Origin: Thermoplasmata archaeon
GTDB taxonomy: Archaea; Thermoplasmatota; Thermoplasmata; WALJ01
Length of the DNA stretch: 43,151 bases
Assembly (NCBI GenBank): GCA_027006785.1
Contig: JALTFR010000039.1
Coordinates: 1-43,151 of the forward strand
Direction: 5' to 3'
Shown: positions 1,617-27,867 of the stretch, piece by piece
Position numbering within the stretch: position 1 is the first letter of the stretch
Layout: each line of letters opens with the position of its first letter
Translations under genes and position numbers: made by a program
Notes under the pieces: generated by a model
Told to the model about the DNA's origin: nothing
The model's input: the letters and a program-made list of their open reading frames with translations, nothing else
Database searches by the model: none

Positions 1617-2909
1617 ATGAGACCGGCCCTGCAGGTTGCACTGGACTTCATGAACCTACCGAGAGCGCTCCGCATTGCAGAGAGCGCTGTTAATGGCGGG
1701 GCCGATTGGGTGGAGGCAGGCACACCGCTGATAAAGAGCGAGGGGCTTGAGGCCGTCCGCTCCCTGAAAAAGAGATTTCCGAACCACACTGTTGTTGCAG
1801 ACCTCAAAACCATGGATGTCGGAGGGCTGGAAACTGAGATGGCCGCGAAGGCGGGAGCAGATGTTGTGACAGTTCTCGGAGTCTCCGATGACGGGACAAT
1901 AGAAGAGGCCGTAAGAGCAGGCAAGAACTTCGGAGCCAGAGTAATGGTGGACATGCTGGGCGTTGAGGACAAGATCAAGAGGGCTAAAGAGGTGGAGTCA
2001 CTCGGCGTGGATTACATCTGCATACATGTGGGCATAGACCAGCAGATGAAGGGGAAGGACCCCTTCGATGAACTGAAGAGGATAGCAGGCGAGGTCTCGC
2101 TGCCAATCGCCGTAGCAGGAGGAATAAACTCGGAGAGCGCTCCCCGTGCTATCGAGAATGGTGCGACCATAGTCATAGTCGGAGGAGCGATCATCAAGGC
2201 CGAGGACCCTGAGAGAGCGGCGAAGGAAATAAAAGAGGCCATGGAAAAGGGAGAGGGAAAGAGGACGGAACTGTATCGCAAATACGGTGAAGATGAGATA
2301 AGGAAGGCCTTTGAACTGGTCTCAACACCCAATATAAGCGATGCGATGCACAGAAAGGGTGCCATGCACGGAATAATCCCCAGAATAAACCCGGGAAGGA
2401 AGATGATTGGCAGAGCCATTACGGTAAGAACAATGGATGGAGACTGGGCGAAACCCGTCGAGGCCATAGAGAGGGCTGAGAAAGGAGATGTGATAGTAAT
2501 AGACGCAGGCGCTGGGTACAACGCGATATGGGGGGAGCTCGCTTCGTGGTCCTGCAAGGTGAAGGGCGTCGCGGGAGTTGTCATTGATGGCGCTGCCCGC
2601 GACATAGACGCGATAAAGGAAATGGATTTCCCTGTATTTTCAAGGAACATATCCTCCAACGCAGGAGAGCCAAAGGGCTATGGGGAGATAGGCGTGGAGA
2701 TAGTCTGCGGCGGCCAGACGGTCAGGGAAGGTGACTGGGTAATCGGAGATGAGAGCGGCGTGGTCGTAGTTCCAAGGGAAAGGGCCGTCGAGATAGCGAA
2801 CAGAGCGCTCGATGTCAGGGAACACGAGGACAGAATAAGGGCGGAGATAAAGGAAGGCAAGACCCTATCCGAAGTGATGGAGCTGGACAGATGGGAGAAG
2901 ATAGGGTAA
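1617..2909 (+). CDS. bifunctional 3-hexulose-6-phosphate synthase / RraA-like (HMG/CHA aldolase family) protein
   Basis: A 430-residue fusion. Residues 1-210 are a TIM barrel of the OMP decarboxylase/hexulose-phosphate synthase suprafamily: the metal and catalytic DxKxxD motif is D62-K64-D67 (ADLKTMDVG), and the phosphate-binding loops are AVAGGIN (165-171) and IVGGAII. Residues 225-425 are an RraA-like domain with the DGAARD signature at 324-329. In archaea HPS usually runs in reverse or in formaldehyde fixation, linking hexulose 6-phosphate with ribulose 5-phosphate, and supplies pentoses when the pentose phosphate pathway is lacking. The RraA-like half is related to HMG/CHA aldolases and RNase E regulators; its role in archaea is unproven. 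No phosphohexuloisomerase gene is next to it. The substrate assignment is by family. Confidence 0.88.
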   Translation: MRPALQVALDFMNLPRALRIAESAVNGGADWVEAGTPLIKSEGLEAVRSLKKRFPNHTVVADLKTMDVGGLETEMAAKAGADVVTVLGVSDDGTIEEAVRAGKNFGARVMVDMLGVEDKIKRAKEVESLGVDYICIHVGIDQQMKGKDPFDELKRIAGEVSLPIAVAGGINSESAPRAIENGATIVIVGGAIIKAEDPERAAKEIKEAMEKGEGKRTELYRKYGEDEIRKAFELVSTPNISDAMHRKGAMHGIIPRINPGRKMIGRAITVRTMDGDWAKPVEAIERAEKGDVIVIDAGAGYNAIWGELASWSCKVKGVAGVVIDGAARDIDAIKEMDFPVFSRNISSNAGEPKGYGEIGVEIVCGGQTVREGDWVIGDESGVVVVPRERAVEIANRALDVREHEDRIRAEIKEGKTLSEVMELDRWEKIG

Positions 2910-18193: not shown

Positions 18194-18919
18194 TTATATC
18201 GTTTTGGGAGGGCAGTTCTTCCTGCAGTAGAAAGGCCCTGCGATGACATAGGCGGATGTGCTTACCAGCACCAGAAAAGAGCCGTAGAGGGCGAGGCCGT
18301 ATCCGTAATAGAAGGATGCGGAAAGCAGAAGTATGAACATCAGCAGGATTATGGCCGAAACAGCGGCCAGCGGGCCCCTCGGCTTCGGGTACTTGAGAGG
18401 AGAGACCATCATTACAGATATGAGGGCTGCGATACCGAGCCCGAGCCACGACACAACCGGAAACCCTCCTTTTCCGATTATAAGTATGGATGAGAGGAGA
18501 ATGAGGGACGCGGATGGCGTAGGCAATCCCCTGAAATAAGGAAGCGCATAGCCTTCCCTTGAGAAGGCGCTCAGCCTCACTATCCCTAGGAAGACATAGA
18601 GGAGAGGGACGATGATGCTCACCTGGGCATCCAGGCCTCCGGAGTCCATGTGGTATCCCGCATATATCGCAAGAGCAGGTGCGGCGCAGAATGAGATGGT
18701 ATCCGCAAGTGAATCCACCTGCATCCCCCTTTCATGCGGACCTCCGTACCTTCGGGCCAGTATCCCATCAAGCCCGTCCAGAAGTATGGCGAGCGCTATC
18801 ATCAGCGAGCCCTTCACCATATCTCCATTGAGAAAGAAGGATATGGCTAAAAATCCCGAAAGTCCGTTGAGCGCGGAGATATAGTCCGCGGGTGAAAGTC
18901 TATTCAGTGGGGAGCGCAA
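18194..18919 (-). CDS. pssA: CDP-alcohol phosphatidyltransferase, probable archaetidylserine synthase
   Basis: A 241-residue membrane protein that should transfer serine to CDP-archaeol. The complete CDP-alcohol phosphatidyltransferase signature is present: D48-G-x-x-D51-G-x-x-A55-R56, then G65, D69 and D73. About six or seven hydrophobic segments follow. It overlaps the decarboxylase gene upstream by 20 nt. The pairing with an archaetidylserine decarboxylase makes serine the likely head group rather than inositol or glycerol phosphate. It is the last gene of the minus-strand operon beginning with aglB. Confidence 0.88.
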   Translation of the reverse strand: MRSPLNRLSPADYISALNGLSGFLAISFFLNGDMVKGSLMIALAILLDGLDGILARRYGGPHERGMQVDSLADTISFCAAPALAIYAGYHMDSGGLDAQVSIIVPLLYVFLGIVRLSAFSREGYALPYFRGLPTPSASLILLSSILIIGKGGFPVVSWLGLGIAALISVMMVSPLKYPKPRGPLAAVSAIILLMFILLLSASFYYGYGLALYGSFLVLVSTSAYVIAGPFYCRKNCPPKTI

Positions 18920-19550
18920 TTACTGTCTCACCTGCCTTCACCCTATCCCCTTCATTCACTATAACCTTAACCCCTGCCGGCATGATGGTATCCACCCTTG
19001 AGCCGAATCGTATCATACCTATCCTCTGCCCTTTCTCCACCTCATCCCCTTCCTTCACATAGGTGACTATGCGCCTTACGAGAACGCCTGCTATCTGAAC
19101 CACCGTAACCCTGCCGATGTCCGTGTCCATCTCGATGTACATGCGCTCGTTCCTCTCTGAATCTTTGCGGTATGCAGGGAGATATCCCCCAGGAACATGC
19201 CTCACTGAAACTATTTTTCCGGAGATCGGCGCTCTGTTCACATGCACATTGTGCACATTCATGAAGACAGCAACCCTTTTTCTACCGTCCTTCTCATCCA
19301 CTATGCTGACAACTCCGTCAGCCGGAGAGACTATCCCTTTCTCAGGTATCTCGCGCTCCGGGTCCCTGAAAAAGAGCAGAAAGAAAAGAAACGCCGCCAG
19401 ACTAAGCAACAGAACCGTGTATTCCAGCCACCTGAGTGGAAAGAAGTGCTCTAGCAGTATAAGTACTATGGCTCCCAGCAGCAAGGGCGATATTACGATT
19501 CCCAGAGAGTTCCTTGCAAGTCTCACAGTAGCCTTATCGAATGCCTGCAT
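18900..19550 (-). CDS. asd: archaetidylserine decarboxylase proenzyme (phosphatidylserine decarboxylase family)
   Basis: A 216-residue short-form PS decarboxylase. It is made as a proenzyme that cuts itself to create a pyruvoyl group; the site is visible as FGSR at 182-185, with cleavage expected between G183 and S184. Two N-terminal hydrophobic segments (about 15-60) anchor it, followed by SPADGVV (75-81) and the conserved His-rich MNVHNVHVNRAP (97-108). It should convert archaetidylserine to archaetidylethanolamine, the product of the next gene being its substrate. It begins 3 nt after the trm1 stop codon. Confidence 0.9.
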   Translation of the reverse strand: MQAFDKATVRLARNSLGIVISPLLLGAIVLILLEHFFPLRWLEYTVLLLSLAAFLFFLLFFRDPEREIPEKGIVSPADGVVSIVDEKDGRKRVAVFMNVHNVHVNRAPISGKIVSVRHVPGGYLPAYRKDSERNERMYIEMDTDIGRVTVVQIAGVLVRRIVTYVKEGDEVEKGQRIGMIRFGSRVDTIMPAGVKVIVNEGDRVKAGETVIALPTE

Positions 19551-19553
19551 ATA

Positions 19554-20618
19554 TCAGTTATGCCCGAAGACACGGAATATATCGTCCGGCGGAGCATCCG
19601 TCTTGAACCCCGTAGGCGAGAAATGGGTCCTTTCGGCCCTGTATCTCATCTCCCTCAACCTGCCCAGTATCCTCTCCATGGGGGGAGATGATGTTCCGAG
19701 ATGGGATGCTATCTCCGGGCTCTCATGGAAACATAACGGCATGTCCGCCTCCTTTTTCCATATTTCAAGCATCTTCTCCATCCTCTTCTTCGTGCCGAAA
19801 TGCTCCTCGACCCTCATGGAATCCAGGATATCCCTGTCAAAGAGAGGTCCGAGCCACATTGGCCCGTATTCCCTGCCTTCCTTCCATGAAAGGCCTTCGA
19901 AATCCAGAAATCCGATGCTTTCAAGGGCCTTATCCGCCTTCCTTGCCCCCTTCTCCACCCTCAGATATGCCCTGAAATAGTGGTCCGCGGAATAGGATAG
20001 CACTGGCCTGAGGCCGATGTCATGGGTGGCCGCTATCCTCACGATATATCCTATCAATATCCGAAGGCCTGCCTCGTGCATGCACCAGTTGTGCGCAGGG
20101 TTCGCCATGTACCTTCTTTTGCACACCTTCGGGTATGCTCCACAGAGAACCGCGGTGTCCGTAGCGCTCACCCCTATGACGCCCTTTCTTGATAAAGAAC
20201 GGACGGCAGCATCCAGAAATGGCACCGGTGTTCCGAAGGGGTCTATATCTATGTAATCAAAGCCTGTTTCCATGGCCAGAGCGTTGACATTCATGTTGTG
20301 CGCTATGGCATCCGAGGAGTTCAGTTCGATATTTCTCTTTATCAGTTCGAAGGCCTTCGGGTCCCTGTCGTTGATATGCACCTCTTCAGCGCTCGTCTCC
20401 AGTGAAAAACGGATTCCCCTTATCCCTGAGGCTGCAAGCCCGTCCAGCACCCTTCTCGGAGATAAGGTATTGAGAAGTGAGACCGAGATATCCCTGTTGA
20501 GCTCCATCGTTGGGTTGTAAAAGACCTCCACATCAGCGCTGTTCGGGCCCTTTCTCCATTCCGCAGGAGGGACCAGTATCCTTGCAAGGCCTTCCTCTAT
20601 CTCAACCAGACCTACCAT
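19554..20618 (-). CDS. trm1: tRNA (guanine(26)-N2)-dimethyltransferase Trm1
   Basis: A 354-residue SAM-dependent methyltransferase acting on G26 of tRNA. Motifs: LDGLAASGIRGIR (58-70) at the SAM site, the catalytic DPFGTP (126-131), and family stretches such as CGAYPKVCKRRY and HEAGLRILIGYI. The C-terminal part is shorter than in some homologues but no motif is missing. Its start overlaps the CARDB membrane-protein gene by 7 nt and its stop is 3 nt before the lipid decarboxylase gene, so a tRNA-modification gene is embedded in an envelope operon. Confidence 0.93.
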   Translation of the reverse strand: MVGLVEIEEGLARILVPPAEWRKGPNSADVEVFYNPTMELNRDISVSLLNTLSPRRVLDGLAASGIRGIRFSLETSAEEVHINDRDPKAFELIKRNIELNSSDAIAHNMNVNALAMETGFDYIDIDPFGTPVPFLDAAVRSLSRKGVIGVSATDTAVLCGAYPKVCKRRYMANPAHNWCMHEAGLRILIGYIVRIAATHDIGLRPVLSYSADHYFRAYLRVEKGARKADKALESIGFLDFEGLSWKEGREYGPMWLGPLFDRDILDSMRVEEHFGTKKRMEKMLEIWKKEADMPLCFHESPEIASHLGTSSPPMERILGRLREMRYRAERTHFSPTGFKTDAPPDDIFRVFGHN

Positions 20619-21391
20619 TTCTTCCTCTTGGGCATCCTCTTCTTCTTGCGGTGGTGTACTTCAAAGGCTATGGTCGCTGTTCCTGTGAAGACGATGGCGA
20701 GAGCTATCCAGAGTGAGGTTTTATTCTCCTTCATCTGACCCACATATATGTCCTGTACCAGCGTTGTCTTTCCGCCCTCAAAGGTCAGGTTGCTCTTGGG
20801 GTCTATGACTATCTTCATTGTATGGACGCCTTTTGAGAAATCCTTCGGATTCCATTTCAGAGTAACGCTAGAGCTCTTGCCTGCATCAACACTTACCTGC
20901 GTGCTGTACTGGTATTTTCCGTCTATGTAGAGGCTCACGGTCACGTTCTTTGCATCAACCGATCCTGAGTTATATATCGGCACCTGCACTGTATTTGGCT
21001 TAAGGGCGTTCACCTTATACTCAACCCGATTCCAGTATGTGTCGTTGCCTATGTCTGCCGTACCGTTCACCGTGATGGTGAATTTTGTCGCTGTATCGGG
21101 AGCCTTGATATGGACCGTGAGGACATTGCTATCTGTAGAGGAGTAATTCGCAGGGTTAACCGAACCGCCGGATGACACGCTAACGCGGCATCCCCATCTG
21201 TCAGCATCCGGAGCTCCCACTATCGTGACGGTGTAATCGTATTGCTCTCCTGTAAGTACGTCAGTTGGACCGCTAACTATGGTCCTTATCTGGCTTCCGG
21301 TTGAAGAGGAAGAGGCGGCATCGACATGCACTGGCACATGCAGAGCTGCGAAAAGCAGGGCTAGAAGTATTATGATTGCGAGCTTTTTCAC
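20612..21391 (-). CDS. secreted, membrane-anchored CARDB-domain protein coupled to AglB
   Basis: 259 residues from a GTG at 21391 (VKKLAIIILLALLFAALHV...). An N-terminal signal peptide, a beta-rich domain (about 35-130), a CARDB-like Ig domain (about 130-215, with VQVPIYNSGSVDAKNVTVSLY and GVHTMKIVIDP), a C-terminal transmembrane helix and a very basic cytoplasmic tail (HHRKKKRMPKRKK). Several N-x-S/T sequons lie in the outer part. The GTG start overlaps the aglB stop as GTGA, with a G-rich ribosome site upstream, so the protein is translated with AglB. The same C-terminal plan (Ig-like domain, TM helix, basic tail) occurs at the end of AglB, so it may be an accessory subunit; that role is inferred. 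Confidence 0.8.
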   Translation of the reverse strand: MKKLAIIILLALLFAALHVPVHVDAASSSSTGSQIRTIVSGPTDVLTGEQYDYTVTIVGAPDADRWGCRVSVSSGGSVNPANYSSTDSNVLTVHIKAPDTATKFTITVNGTADIGNDTYWNRVEYKVNALKPNTVQVPIYNSGSVDAKNVTVSLYIDGKYQYSTQVSVDAGKSSSVTLKWNPKDFSKGVHTMKIVIDPKSNLTFEGGKTTLVQDIYVGQMKENKTSLWIALAIVFTGTATIAFEVHHRKKKRMPKRKKW

Positions 21392-24300
21392 AGTATCGCC
21401 CCCTTCTTCCTCCCTATTATGTAGATGGCTGCCAGTACGCCCACTATGCCGAGTGCCCAATATATCGGTGTCATATCCATCTTCTGAGGATTCCACAGTG
21501 TGACATTCTCACCAGAGACCGTTATATCTGGCTTTATCTCCAGCGAAGGGAGCGGAGCGATCAGGGTCTTTTCATCGCTCGCACCGTTCGCACTCTGTAC
21601 GAGTATTGTGAACTTCGCATCATATGCAGGTGCATGAGCTATGGGTATCAGTTTCACATATACCCTTGAACTGGAATTCGCAGGTATGCTCAGCTGTACG
21701 CTATCTGAATAATTTCCTGATTTGCTGTCCGAGAGCCCTATGTCCCAGCCCATCGCATTGAGTTTGGCTCTATCCTGCGGAGTCACCGAGAATGTGTTCG
21801 GAGCATTTCCGGTATTGCGTATTTCAACTGAATACACGGCATTTCCTTCCAGCCATGATGAGGTGCTTATGTTTTCTATCCGTACGCCCGGGACCTCTTT
21901 AACGCCCAGAGCCAGCCTCAGAGAATCACTGTATGAGGGAGATGCGGATGAAGTTGCCACCACAGTAAGTGGCTCGTGGTTGAGCAAGGCATCGGAGGGG
22001 ACATGCACGGTAACTCTCACAGTTGTGCTCTCGGATGGCTGGAGCTCGACATAGTTCGGACTGAAATCACAGTGCCATGGGCTGGATGTGAAGGTGTATT
22101 TGTCAGGGGTATTTCCTGCATTCTTCACCGTTATAGTATAAACGACATCCGTGCCCGGCATAACGGTCACTCTCTGGGATGAATCCCATGACAGTTTAGG
22201 TTTGTATGTGTTGATCCTGTCAAGAACGATGTTCTGCTCCTTGCTGAATATGAGACTGACATCCAGATTCTTCAGATACGATGTCTGAATTCCATATTCC
22301 TCGTCCTTTGCGGACACGACCACGCTGTAATTTCCCCTTGGAACGGTTATCCTGAATTTTCCGCTGGAATTGCTTGAGAAGCTTTTCTGTATGCTCTGAT
22401 CATTCACATTTATCATGGATATGTTGGCGGATATGCCACTTCCGTCGCTTTTCACCGTGGTTCCCGAGAATACGGCAGCTGGATCCATGTGTATGCTCCT
22501 GTGCGTGTGCTCTCCGATGGTTATCTCGTCCATGACAGCATAGGGGCTGTCTCCCGCCTTTGATTCGGCATAGACGACATATGCACCCATCGGTACACTC
22601 GCATGGAAAGTTCCATCGGACGATGTAACGAAGGAATACTCTTGGCCGTTATCTTCGGACCTGAGGATGACTGAAGTGTTTCCTGCAGGTGAACTGTCAA
22701 CATACAGGGAGGCCGTAAGATTTCCCGGAGGTATATGGCGGCTGAGCATGAGATTGACGGTCTTCGAAGAGGATATAGCGGTGGTGAGACTTCCTGTGTA
22801 CGTCACGTTGCGCTCTATATTATCAACCGTCTCCATGTCCGTATAATCAACCGAGAACGTATAATCCCCCTTCGGGAGCATCAGATATATCTCGTTCTTC
22901 GACAGATATGTCTTCACCGCATTTTCAACAGATACGTTCAGAGGTATATTGGTGACTTTCTTGCCATCGACCTCCATGCGTACCGTGACCTCATTTGCCT
23001 CTTTGTATTTCAGAGTGATGTTCTCGGGCCCGGAGGCATGTATGGCATCATATATGGCAAAGATTCCGTTCGCGCTGCTCATCGTTGAATTTATTATGTA
23101 GTCTCCGACCGGGAGATATACCTTGAAAGTTCCGTTCGTGGTCCTGTATGGATATTCAACAGAACCGTTCGAGAAATACAGCACGTATGTCTGGTTTGAG
23201 GTGGCTCCGTCATAGATAGCCCTTCCCTCTATCAGGTATCTCTTCTGTATTGTCAGGTTCTTTACCGTTCCTTCCGAGTAAGGATTGACGTAGAGCCACT
23301 CGTAGTGAGAGAGTTCATACCTTGATGTGTGGTTCTCATCTGTATACTGGGCCACTATTACGGTGTATCTTCCTCCATAGAGCTGTATAGAGTAATTCCC
23401 CGTGCTGTCTGTGGTTGTATTGTAGGTGGAATTGTAGCCGTAGAAGCTTACATTTATTCCTGCAGCAGGATTTCCATTCAGATACACGGTTCCAGATACG
23501 GTGCTCTTCAGAGCCACCATGCTTACATTATGGTATATCTCATCTCCGGCTGAAAGATGTATGGTGCGCTCATAGGTCGAATATCCGTTTGAACTCACAG
23601 TCAGTGTGTAATTTCCGGGTGCAAGATAGTACTCATAGTCTCCTCTATCGTCGCTGAATGTACGGAAGCTATCTCCTGTTGCTTCGCTGGTGAAATCCAT
23701 TCTGGCCCTTTCCACCGGCAGGTTCTCAACACCTGTTATCTTTCCCTTGATGATTGCACCGTGTTCAAGATCGATGTTGACTACCCGGTCATGAGGTATG
23801 CTTATCCATGTGGAATATGCATACGGGAAACGGGCAAATGCGTGGGCCACATACATGTGATACGTGCCTGACGGCAGGTATGCCGAATAGTTGCCATCTA
23901 TGGAATATACCTCCCATCTGGCACCTTCGGAGTTGATGAATGATATGGGGAAATTGTCCTTGTAATAGTGCTTGTAGCGTATATAACCTCTCAATTCGTA
24001 TGCCTGCTTGAGCTGGAAGGTCTTCTGGCTTCTGTCCTTGAGATTGATGTGGTCCATAAGCATATATCTGGAGCCGCCGTGCATGTAAATTCCCGTTACG
24101 GTGTAACTGCCTCTCGGAAGTTTCAGAGAGAAATAGCCGTTCTTATCTGTTATAACGGAGCGCCTTGCTTCTACATCCGTATAATTCACAAAGTTCAGAC
24201 CGAAGTTCGGTATTGCCCGGCCGTCCAGAACCACGTAGCCGCTCAGCTTTGTAGCGGGATAAACTGAGATGTTCACAGTAGATGTGCTGTTTGTCATGAG

Positions 24301-27300
24301 ACCGAATCTTGTGTTTCCTCCGGTAAGGTTATCCGATACCGTATCTACCTGATATACTCCAGGTATAACTCCGTGTACGGAATATCTGCCCTCACGGTCC
24401 GTAGTGAAATTGAATTCATTGTGGGAATCGAGCGCATAGGCCCTGAATGTTATTCCCTGAGCTGCATTCCCGTTGATATAGCGCGCTACCCCTCTTATGG
24501 ATGACGTAGGTACGGGGACATCCTGTGTGGCCCCTTTGGATGGTTTTACCGTTACAGTTGCATTGATATATTTTACATAGCCGTTATAGTTCTCCTCAAC
24601 TCCATAATCTCCGGGTACAATATCCGAAAAGCTGTAGTTTCCTCCTGAATCAGATACGGCGGTGTAGTTTATGCTGAGGCTCTTTCCGTAGAGTGTGACC
24701 TTAACTCCTGAAAGTCCGTGTTCATCCGTGTCCTTAACACCGTTATTGTTCATATCAAGAAATGCATTTCCCCTTACTTTACTGGTGGAAACGACGGGGT
24801 CCTTTTCTATGAAATAATCCCACTTTCCATCCCCGTTCATGTCGTATTTCTCCCTCCATGCCTGATATCTCTCAACATGGAAATGAGTGGCATTCAGGAT
24901 ATTCTTCTCAGAGAGCCTTATCTTGTCCAGCGAACCCCCATTTGAAACAATGAGTGTTACATTTCCAAATGGTGCAAGTATGCTGTAATGGCCGTTACTG
25001 TCGGTCTTTACGGTTTCATGAGGAATTCCGTAGTCGTCATAAACAGTTACTCGAACATCACCGACTGGGTGCCTCTGTGGCGTCTCTACCGTACCATTGA
25101 CTATTGCTCCTTCGTAGTACTCGAGGAATGTTACTCCGCTGTATAGGGTCCCCGGACTCATATCCACGATTCCCTGACCTGTCTTTCTGTAATGGAAGGC
25201 CTCTTCCATGGAAACGGCCTGCCATGCATCACTGTGGTTCTTGTAATCCTTATATGGGTTCCAGTAAGCCGTGCGGTAGACAACCCTGAAATGAGTGAGA
25301 TTCCATGCCGGCATAGGGATGTTGTCTTTCATGTTCTGGCTGAGACCGGGCAGGCCATTGTCTCCGAGTCCTGCCTCTTTCGGACTGTATCCGAAATAAT
25401 TCCTGTAAATCATCGAATTATAGAACATATCCTTGTATTCTATCTCAGTATGATCTATATTCTCCCTTTCATCCTTGGGAATGTCGTCTATCGGGTATTT
25501 CTTCCCGTATTTTGTAACAGCATATATCATATAGAAATCGTAAGGGAGCCTGTGGTTGCCATTGCTTATCCTGCGGTCGGAAAGGACGGCAGGAGCATAG
25601 AAAATGCCTGTGTTCTGTGCAGAGAATGGTATTAGTCTCGAATCAACGGCAAAATACGATATCCTCTTCCCTGTAGTATCCTCAAGGGCTTTCAGCATCT
25701 CTACAAGGTGCTCTTCCGGATATGTCTGAAGTATTCCTCTCACAGCAACATAACGGGCATTCTTATCGTCCATCTGTGAGTCATAATAGCTGTATTTTTC
25801 GGGATGAGCGATTATCTGAGGGACATATTTCTGGGGGTGACGGTACATATCCACTATCTGGTTTACCTGTTCATCAGTAAGGTAGTGATGCATGAGATCC
25901 ATGGAACGCTCACTGAACTCCCCTGTTTTCGGGTTATACTCGGAATCCAGTATCCTCTCGATAAGAAGGGAAATGGCCTCGGTTTCATTCTGGGCCATGA
26001 GGAAACTGCCTGCTAACTGATAACCGTTCTGGAAGTTATCTGCCACTGCAGGGTGCTCTCCCTCCTGTATGGATTCGAAACCGTAATCCCACCAGCTGAG
26101 GAAACCGGGACGATTCTCAGGCAACTGGTCAGTATCTTGCGCCCTGAACCATTTCCATGCGGCAGGCCAGTACTGATTTGGTGTCGGAAGCTGATACCCG
26201 AACGCACCGAAATACCAGAGATCTCTCTGATTGGATGCATTGTATAAAGAAGAATCAGGCCTCATAAAATCAGGCATCGTGTTGTATACCTGAAGGTCAT
26301 ATTGCTTCTTCTCATTGGTTGGAATCCCGGCATCCACTGCATACCACACGTTGGGCATTACCACCATGAAGACAAGGAAGAGCACCACTATGATGTGTTT
26401 AATCTTCACGCTCTTCTTTATCGCATAGTACTTGTTCCCGCTCAGGCTCCTGTATGTCTTCTTCATAGAGCCGAAATCGGCCTCTTTTATGATGTAGTAA
26501 GTTATCCATGCGGCAGATATTGCAAAAGCAGGTGCCGCATTGAACATGAACCTCGCAGCAGAAACCGCCATATATATTGAAACTGCGCTCCATATCACAA
26601 AGAACACGTAGTCCGGCTCCCATTTCTTTCTCATCTTCCATATAATCCACAGAATGGCCAGAAGCGACATGAAGAAGGTTACCGGCCCGAAGGACATTAT
26701 CATGTTACTGATATATGGCGCCTGTGCCTCTGCAATGGTCTGATACAGCTTGGAAACTGTGAAATATCCTGTCTGGTGCTCAATGGTCTTGAATAACTTT
26801 GGAAGGAAGTAATACATCCCAACAGCTGCTATGGCAATAGCACCTATAAGAGCCGGGATGGTAAGTGTCCATGGAAGCCTGCGGGTCGTTGAGAAATAGA
26901 GGCCCATTACAAGTATTGCAGATGTCATTATTGCGGGCGCCCATACCCAGTAAACCTGATTTGTGATGTAGTAATACGGAAACGCAAAAATCAGAGGCAT
27001 GCCCATAGAAAGGAATGCCACGGATGTCAGAGCAAGTGTATCCCTTCCCCTGAATACGTTTATGAATACCTGAAATAGGAAATATATGACGACTATGAAG
27101 AACAGATATGAGAAACCCTTCCATGTGAGGGCAACAGTCATTGCCGAAACTCCGGAAAGCCCGGCATACAGGAAGGCCTGCCTGTTCTCCTTAGCCATTG
27201 CTGAAAAGCCGTTTCTTATCTCCGGGAATTTTCTCCAGCTATCAACCCAGTCTTTTTCCTTCAGTTTTTCAAGAGATACCAGAAGGAAATAGATTGATAG

Positions 27301-27867
27301 AACGATGAAGAATAGGACAAAGGGATCGTGATCAGCATAGGTCAGCTGGCTCCTTTGCATATGTGCGGGCATTGTTGCCACCAGAAATGCTGATATGAGG
27401 CCCACCCTTCGGTTGAAGACCTTCTTTCCTATGAGATATACAGGAAAGATGGTAAGTGAACCCCATATGACCGAAGAGAATATCAGTGCATATGAAAGGG
27501 CGGAATCAAGGTTTCCTCCAAGGAAAGGAGCAAGAAGATAACCCATAACCACTATGCTCCAGTCATATGCCGGAGGCCTCGGGTTGTGGCTTCCTATCGG
27601 GTATTTTAACATCGGATCATGTATGAGGGAATGGTGCTCATATGCCGCTGTCCAGATCGCTCTCTCATGATAGTAGGAGTCCGAACCGCCGGATACGAGG
27701 TAGGGGACTCCGTAAGCGGTCGCTTCACCCAATCCGAAGTATGTACGCAGGAAAACGGCGAGGAAGAATATCAGCAGGAGAGATATCCCTACAAGAAGGG
27801 TGTCTCTACGTAAGCTGCACTCACTCATTTTCCTTTTCATTCTTGAAAGGACGCTGTTCTCTGGCAT
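21388..27867 (-). CDS. aglB: giant AglB/STT3 oligosaccharyltransferase with about 11 tandem extracellular beta-sandwich domains
   Basis: 2159 residues, against roughly 700-1000 for usual archaeal AglB. Residues 22-510 hold a multi-span membrane domain with SDSYYHERAI (62-71) and ADHDPFV (178-184) as the first and second acidic motifs; the catalytic WWDYG is at 592-596. From about 920 to 1885 come about 11 domains of 75-90 residues, each with a Gly-tyrosine turn such as DSNGHYSILAP, DKNGYFSLKLP, DSTGNYSIQ or NSSGKFRITVP followed by a G-x-Y-x-V strand: carboxypeptidase-regulatory/CNA-B/SdrD-B-like folds. One (1030-1115) is preceded by a calcium-loop-like DMNGDGKWD (1009-1017). Two CARDB/NEW3-like domains (1890-2110), a TM helix (2132-2151) and GRKKGAIL end the protein. 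Over 30 sequons lie beyond residue 920. It transfers lipid-linked glycan to Asn-x-Ser/Thr outside the cell. Confidence 0.92.
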   Translation of the reverse strand: MPENSVLSRMKRKMSECSLRRDTLLVGISLLLIFFLAVFLRTYFGLGEATAYGVPYLVSGGSDSYYHERAIWTAAYEHHSLIHDPMLKYPIGSHNPRPPAYDWSIVVMGYLLAPFLGGNLDSALSYALIFSSVIWGSLTIFPVYLIGKKVFNRRVGLISAFLVATMPAHMQRSQLTYADHDPFVLFFIVLSIYFLLVSLEKLKEKDWVDSWRKFPEIRNGFSAMAKENRQAFLYAGLSGVSAMTVALTWKGFSYLFFIVVIYFLFQVFINVFRGRDTLALTSVAFLSMGMPLIFAFPYYYITNQVYWVWAPAIMTSAILVMGLYFSTTRRLPWTLTIPALIGAIAIAAVGMYYFLPKLFKTIEHQTGYFTVSKLYQTIAEAQAPYISNMIMSFGPVTFFMSLLAILWIIWKMRKKWEPDYVFFVIWSAVSIYMAVSAARFMFNAAPAFAISAAWITYYIIKEADFGSMKKTYRSLSGNKYYAIKKSVKIKHIIVVLFLVFMVVMPNVWYAVDAGIPTNEKKQYDLQVYNTMPDFMRPDSSLYNASNQRDLWYFGAFGYQLPTPNQYWPAAWKWFRAQDTDQLPENRPGFLSWWDYGFESIQEGEHPAVADNFQNGYQLAGSFLMAQNETEAISLLIERILDSEYNPKTGEFSERSMDLMHHYLTDEQVNQIVDMYRHPQKYVPQIIAHPEKYSYYDSQMDDKNARYVAVRGILQTYPEEHLVEMLKALEDTTGKRISYFAVDSRLIPFSAQNTGIFYAPAVLSDRRISNGNHRLPYDFYMIYAVTKYGKKYPIDDIPKDERENIDHTEIEYKDMFYNSMIYRNYFGYSPKEAGLGDNGLPGLSQNMKDNIPMPAWNLTHFRVVYRTAYWNPYKDYKNHSDAWQAVSMEEAFHYRKTGQGIVDMSPGTLYSGVTFLEYYEGAIVNGTVETPQRHPVGDVRVTVYDDYGIPHETVKTDSNGHYSILAPFGNVTLIVSNGGSLDKIRLSEKNILNATHFHVERYQAWREKYDMNGDGKWDYFIEKDPVVSTSKVRGNAFLDMNNNGVKDTDEHGLSGVKVTLYGKSLSINYTAVSDSGGNYSFSDIVPGDYGVEENYNGYVKYINATVTVKPSKGATQDVPVPTSSIRGVARYINGNAAQGITFRAYALDSHNEFNFTTDREGRYSVHGVIPGVYQVDTVSDNLTGGNTRFGLMTNSTSTVNISVYPATKLSGYVVLDGRAIPNFGLNFVNYTDVEARRSVITDKNGYFSLKLPRGSYTVTGIYMHGGSRYMLMDHINLKDRSQKTFQLKQAYELRGYIRYKHYYKDNFPISFINSEGARWEVYSIDGNYSAYLPSGTYHMYVAHAFARFPYAYSTWISIPHDRVVNIDLEHGAIIKGKITGVENLPVERARMDFTSEATGDSFRTFSDDRGDYEYYLAPGNYTLTVSSNGYSTYERTIHLSAGDEIYHNVSMVALKSTVSGTVYLNGNPAAGINVSFYGYNSTYNTTTDSTGNYSIQLYGGRYTVIVAQYTDENHTSRYELSHYEWLYVNPYSEGTVKNLTIQKRYLIEGRAIYDGATSNQTYVLYFSNGSVEYPYRTTNGTFKVYLPVGDYIINSTMSSANGIFAIYDAIHASGPENITLKYKEANEVTVRMEVDGKKVTNIPLNVSVENAVKTYLSKNEIYLMLPKGDYTFSVDYTDMETVDNIERNVTYTGSLTTAISSSKTVNLMLSRHIPPGNLTASLYVDSSPAGNTSVILRSEDNGQEYSFVTSSDGTFHASVPMGAYVVYAESKAGDSPYAVMDEITIGEHTHRSIHMDPAAVFSGTTVKSDGSGISANISMINVNDQSIQKSFSSNSSGKFRITVPRGNYSVVVSAKDEEYGIQTSYLKNLDVSLIFSKEQNIVLDRINTYKPKLSWDSSQRVTVMPGTDVVYTITVKNAGNTPDKYTFTSSPWHCDFSPNYVELQPSESTTVRVTVHVPSDALLNHEPLTVVATSSASPSYSDSLRLALGVKEVPGVRIENISTSSWLEGNAVYSVEIRNTGNAPNTFSVTPQDRAKLNAMGWDIGLSDSKSGNYSDSVQLSIPANSSSRVYVKLIPIAHAPAYDAKFTILVQSANGASDEKTLIAPLPSLEIKPDITVSGENVTLWNPQKMDMTPIYWALGIVGVLAAIYIIGRKKGAIL

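Follow-up and report, generated by a model that had tools for sequence, protein, structure and literature searches.

Our data indicate that archaea of the class Thermoplasmata share an AglB oligosaccharyltransferase (OST) of more than twice the usual size, together with a coupled membrane partner. The catalytic motifs of this enzyme are intact, its core is followed by a conserved tail of tandem β-sandwich domains that ends in a membrane helix, and its gene forms a conserved pair with the gene of a small companion protein. The class includes Aciduliprofundum, the Methanomassiliicoccales methanogens and halophilic relatives, and the long layout is standard for it, neither an artefact nor a one-off. 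An earlier, sequence-only reading of this DNA had allowed that such a layout might prove both standard and already described for the lineage. It is standard in the class, while our search found no published description of the long AglB or of the companion; the search covered mainly open-access literature and may have passed over an earlier mention. Within the literature searched, the long AglB is a previously undescribed variant of a known OST. We tentatively favor, at slightly less than an even chance, the reading that it is a clade-specific OST in which a NOMO-like scaffold is fused to AglB and the companion serves as a subunit.

The window analyzed here is the whole of positions 1-43,151 of contig JALTFR010000039.1 from a Thermoplasmata archaeon (assembly GCA_027006785.1). 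Within this window aglB is a single open frame at 21388-27867 on the minus strand, which encodes 2159 amino acids from an ATG start with 0 internal stops. A search of the source genome found this one AglB and no second copy. The sequence-only reading had given the coordinates and length exactly, leaving the strand unstated, and had raised the concern that the frame could be a misassembled fusion of two genes. The window does come from a draft assembly (49 contigs). Yet dozens of independent genomes, several of them assembled in one contig, carry this very fusion, which refutes misassembly and leaves it next to no probability.

We found that the core is that of an AglB, as had been proposed. 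The STT3 profile PF02516 matches it at 33 bits, above cut-off, and the archaeo_STT3 profile TIGR04154 matches residues 29-967 at 246 bits, a score under the 450-bit cut-off for membership. An AlphaFold model of residues 1-1200 (pLDDT 88, pTM 0.79) had Archaeoglobus AglB (7e9s) as its best Foldseek match (E = 5e-28) and also matched human STT3 (4e-18), yeast STT3 and bacterial PglB (3e-12). The WWDYG motif stands where the sequence-only reading had placed it, the motif known as TIXE (PMC8342417) is present as TIAE, and putative metal-site acidic residues are conserved in external loops 1 and 2 (SD 62-63 and DHD 179-181). Since all catalytic motifs are kept, the OST core is predicted to be catalytically intact. 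The catalytic fold and motifs are shared with Archaeoglobus fulgidus AglB-L (3waj, 3wak, 5gmy, 7e9s); that protein, however, has about 870 amino acids, is described as single-subunit, and is without the tandem array, the CARDB pair and the C-terminal helix. Archaeal OSTs have been described as single-subunit enzymes (PMC8342417, PMC5131992), and the claim that a typical archaeal AglB is much shorter holds for the six characterized proteins, which have 754-1054 amino acids (PMC5131992). At 2159 amino acids, the source AglB lies outside the ordinary single-subunit archaeal form (~750-1050 amino acids, no tandem tail). The features of AglB and its companion are collected in Table 1.

Table 1. Features of the long AglB and its companion, with positions in the window
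Feature	Residues	Position	Strand	Basis
AglB catalytic core: multi-pass membrane region and external catalytic domain	1-916	25120..27867	-	PF02516, TIGR04154, AlphaFold, Foldseek
TIXE motif (TIAE)	377-380	26728..26739	-	T and E invariant, I in 98% of class proteins
WWDYG catalytic motif	592-596	26080..26094	-	Sequence; invariant in 55/55 class proteins
D1, first sandwich domain; adjoins core, best conserved of the tail	917-977	24937..25119	-	Mostly inside TIGR04154 match; AlphaFold
Linker after D1: QA(W/M)R and D-x-N-x-D-G-x-x-D loop	1002-1018	24814..24864	-	Between D1 and D2; highly conserved
D2-D11, ten tandem prealbumin/CarboxypepD_reg-like sandwiches	1029-1876	22240..24783	-	Pfam; repeat profile; AlphaFold
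Two CARDB-type domains	1886-2106	21550..22212	-	Tail-derived profile, 89 and 68 bits
C-terminal membrane helix, then short basic end	~2133-2155	21403..21471	-	Hydropathy; AlphaFold helix
Companion, 259-aa membrane protein		20612..21391	-	Sequence and overlap; family at 48/49 testable loci

The tail begins with a prealbumin-like (transthyretin) array, D1-D11, that spans residues 917-1876. The sequence-only reading had counted about 11 tandem β-sandwich domains. With a profile derived from the tail we detected 11 copies in tandem (906-1896), and a search with CarboxypepD_reg (Pfam) agrees, matching 8 stretches of AglB with E = 1e-56 for the whole protein. The shared turn that it had described among the repeats is real as well, since the strict form [DN]xxGx[YF]...P occurs 6 times versus 0.05 in shuffles, and the two CARDB/NEW3-like domains and the terminal membrane helix were both found, separated from each other by a flexible linker. 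The remaining tail may have grown out of D1, which carries several invariant residues and would then represent the ancestral end of AglB. In the linker that follows, Q1002 and R1005 are conserved in 96% and 98% of sequences, DG..D is present in the consensus, and the acidic loop looks like a calcium site and may bind calcium.

We modeled residues 960-2159, a structure prediction that had been suggested as a check, and found well-folded domains in an arrangement of uncertain overall shape. The mean pLDDT of 86 lends confidence to the fold of each domain, but at a pTM of 0.43 the shape of the whole cannot be relied on. Foldseek searches with the tail returned generic strings of Ig-like domains only (alpha-2-macroglobulin, complement, axonemal proteins). 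One claim about the tail did not survive: it had been expected to project far from the membrane, whereas its own C-terminal helix brings it back to the membrane. With both ends held there, a simple outward rod would be impossible, and the tail should instead form an arch or a hairpin or lie along the membrane, probably over or beside the catalytic domain.

We questioned how widely this layout is distributed. A survey of AglB length, another of the suggested checks, covered the phylum (the class and its sister classes) and established the long form as standard in the class. In the family of the source organism, 5/5 genomes carry the long AglB, 2 of them in shorter frames that are apparently cut by contig ends. 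An STT3 match was found in 158/200 genomes of the class sample, with most frames among the matches listed at 2,080-2,280 amino acids, and the more sensitive TIGR04154 search found AglB in 375/390 genomes of the phylum. Named relatives with a long AglB include DHVE2, Aciduliprofundum, Cuniculiplasma, Methanomassiliicoccales and halophilic Thermoplasmata. Across 55 full-length class proteins, whole-AglB length is 2148 +/- 68 amino acids (~3% variation) and domain order is kept, while the identity of the tail to that of the source AglB is about 20% (~15-30%), with few gaps. Two CARDB-type copies are present in 53/55 of these proteins, and a hydrophobic helix with basic residues ends nearly all complete class AglBs. 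Because length and order are kept at such low identity and with few gaps, selection on the tail seems to preserve the number and spacing of its domains, that is, its geometry, rather than its surface residues.

Sister classes are more varied. Those sampled contain AglBs of 902-981 amino acids with 0-1 repeats, of 1023-1427 amino acids with 2-6 repeats but lacking a terminal anchor, and of about 2300-3041 amino acids with 6-11 repeats and, mostly, CARDB-type domains and a terminal helix. This series forms a natural experiment on scaffold function across the phylum; since our tree of the core was quick and has long branches, we draw no order of events from it. The graded repeat numbers of the sister classes and the low identity of the tail are what one would expect if the tail of this surface enzyme were a nearly neutral expansion of repeats. 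Neutral repeats, however, would gain and lose units, whereas total length in the class is nearly constant and the CARDB pair is almost always retained, so we regard near-neutral expansion as very improbable. Several observations on individual sister lineages may be added. Families f52, f50 and f44 (L131, L132 and L133) have canonical AglBs of 902-981 amino acids that score above the TIGR04154 cut-off, and two of these genomes carry an extra, longer AglB frame (1358 and 1135 amino acids), possibly a paralogue or the product of horizontal transfer. The largest AglB seen, at 3041 amino acids, belongs to L127 (G280), and its catalytic motif is shifted to residue 815.

Among solved structures, the tail profile matches NOMO2 best (E = 1.7e-35 as a sum over several segments). 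NOMO has a dozen tandem prealbumin-like domains and, as part of the BOS complex of the endoplasmic reticulum multipass translocon, lies beside the export machinery (PMC11186639). The AglB tail resembles it in having tandem prealbumin-like domains and a membrane anchor, a likeness of architecture only, and NOMO differs in being a separate protein that contains no enzyme. We know of no CARDB pair in NOMO. We rejected the possibility that the tail is a true NOMO orthologue, as the matches are not collinear along the NOMO chain: the same few tail domains (tail segment 87-301) align to several segments of NOMO, scoring 33-39 bits on each, and the match to an SdrD B domain, at 32 bits, is close to these per-segment scores. 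Non-collinear matches with scores barely above SdrD indicate that the NOMO likeness is one of plan within a superfamily, not of orthology. NOMO is predicted to form antiparallel homodimers (PMC11186639), and this, together with a length conserved at low identity, would suit a tail that acts as a NOMO-like oligomerization or spacing device and sets the distance between OSTs or between OST and the Sec translocon. Since sister families carry 0 to 11 repeat copies, the phylum as a whole does not require one fixed spacing, and we consider a spacing device rather improbable.

We asked whether the tail is a target of the enzyme to which it is fused. The sequence-only reading had counted over 30 N-x-S/T sequons in the extension; we counted 34 in residues 960-2108, versus 15.2 +/- 3.4 in shuffles (34 was reached in 0/2000) and 17 reversed motifs. 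Class tails contain 1176 forward sequons versus 682 reversed, and the companions 264 versus 95. The idea that the enzyme glycosylates itself gains indirect support from this excess, which is found in the tails of the source AglB and most relatives, but it loses from the halophilic members, with only 5-9 tail sequons, and from the sites themselves. Almost no tail sequon site is conserved among the 55 class proteins. The best column, that of residue 1714 (about 22726-22728, minus strand), reaches 67% of class AglBs, and the source AglB has no Asn there, so we rejected the idea that the tail has conserved sites of self-glycosylation. In the source organism a glycosylated tail is plausible, judging from its sequon count; across the class, glycans are unlikely to be the reason for the existence of the tail.

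The same sequon excess, in tails and companions alike, bears on whether the tail is mainly structural, a glycosylated arch within a disordered glycoprotein coat with little direct role in catalysis. Thermoplasmatales mostly have no lattice S-layer and instead an unordered, unidentified surface glycoprotein layer (PMC12448462), as a coat function would lead one to expect. Against it, halophilic members retain the tail with so few sequons, sequon sites are scarcely conserved, and a single-copy enzyme is probably not abundant enough to make up a cell coat. We therefore consider a mainly structural tail unlikely. The general lack of an S-layer in Thermoplasmatales also makes doubtful, for part of the class at least, the earlier suggestion that the extension holds S-layer proteins near the active site.

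Directly downstream of aglB lies the companion gene, whose GTG start shares 4 bp (GTGA) with the aglB stop; the mechanical start of its open reading frame, at 21496, is too far upstream. The predicted protein has a signal peptide, a CARDB ectodomain (one match), one C-terminal helix and a basic tail. The companion family adjoins aglB, on its downstream side, in 48 of the 49 loci with enough sequence to be testable, without exception on the aglB strand and in many cases with the 4-bp overlap, and in 6/6 genomes compared by coordinates. The CARDB profile matches 44/45 family members, and three companions held out of the companion profile still score 151-263 bits against it. A whole-genome search of 25 genomes found the full-length family in the class and, outside it, in a single sister family (f36); the 18 other sister-class genomes had either no match or incomplete CARDB matches, most of which fell within larger proteins. 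The architecture can do without the companion, since in several sister lineages a long AglB that ends in a C-terminal helix is present and the companion is absent.

In plan the companion resembles TRAP-beta, with its signal peptide, Ig-like ectodomain, single helix and short basic tail. We rejected this identity: the TRAP_beta profile matches 0/45 members at E <= 0.01, in contrast to CARDB, and a 16.6-bit TRAP_beta match came from the over-long translation from 21496 and was lost with the corrected start. No TRAP chain stood among the listed PDB profile matches for the companion. The conserved gene adjacency suggests that the companion may be the first known archaeal OST accessory subunit. We hold it somewhat short of even that the OST of the class consists of two parts, the catalytic chain, which includes a NOMO-like scaffold, and a CARDB protein that serves it as a dedicated subunit; no earlier archaeal OST has been described with an accessory subunit, so this would be the first. 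A companion that is a subunit would mean that OSTs gained complexity outside the eukaryotes as well.

A scaffold role for the tail would be consistent with the constancy of its length and domain order and with the presence of a coupled membrane partner. In our preferred reading, of a scaffold fused to AglB with the companion as subunit, the 11 prealbumin-like and two CARDB-type sandwiches and the return helix on a single AglB would leave the chain anchored at both ends, by the catalytic domain and by the last helix, as an arch or apron on the outer membrane face beside the active site. The companion would most likely bind this arch as an accessory subunit, perhaps via the two CARDB domains by the final helix, and AglB and companion would collect or hold surface proteins that have just been exported, during glycosylation of their sequons, by analogy with the extra OST subunits and NOMO around the eukaryotic translocon. 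Physical association, the arch shape and substrate holding are what we infer from an architecture, a conservation, a set of catalytic motifs and a gene pair that the sequences show directly. In function, a comparison may be drawn with the accessory subunits of eukaryotic OST, such as Ost1/ribophorin I and Wbp1/OST48, which surround STT3 with β-rich external domains on single helices; most of the archaeal scaffold is instead part of the catalytic polypeptide itself. Such an enzyme bears on surface glycosylation in archaea that are mostly without an S-layer.

Conservation of the neighborhood does not extend beyond the companion. None of 15 other neighboring frames tested is conserved beside aglB in relatives, and a wider conserved set (TRM1, PSD, archaetidylserine synthase, HD, ArcS) was rejected, with no adjacent conservation. 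The genes for archaetidylserine synthase and archaetidylserine/phosphatidylserine decarboxylase lie near aglB in the window (18194-19550, minus strand) and not beside it in the relatives checked. TRM1 is present in three loci, ~5 kb upstream, and ArcS in one. Elsewhere in the window, a single 430-aa gene (1617-2909, plus strand) fuses an orotidine-decarboxylase/HUMPS-type domain to an RraA-like domain.
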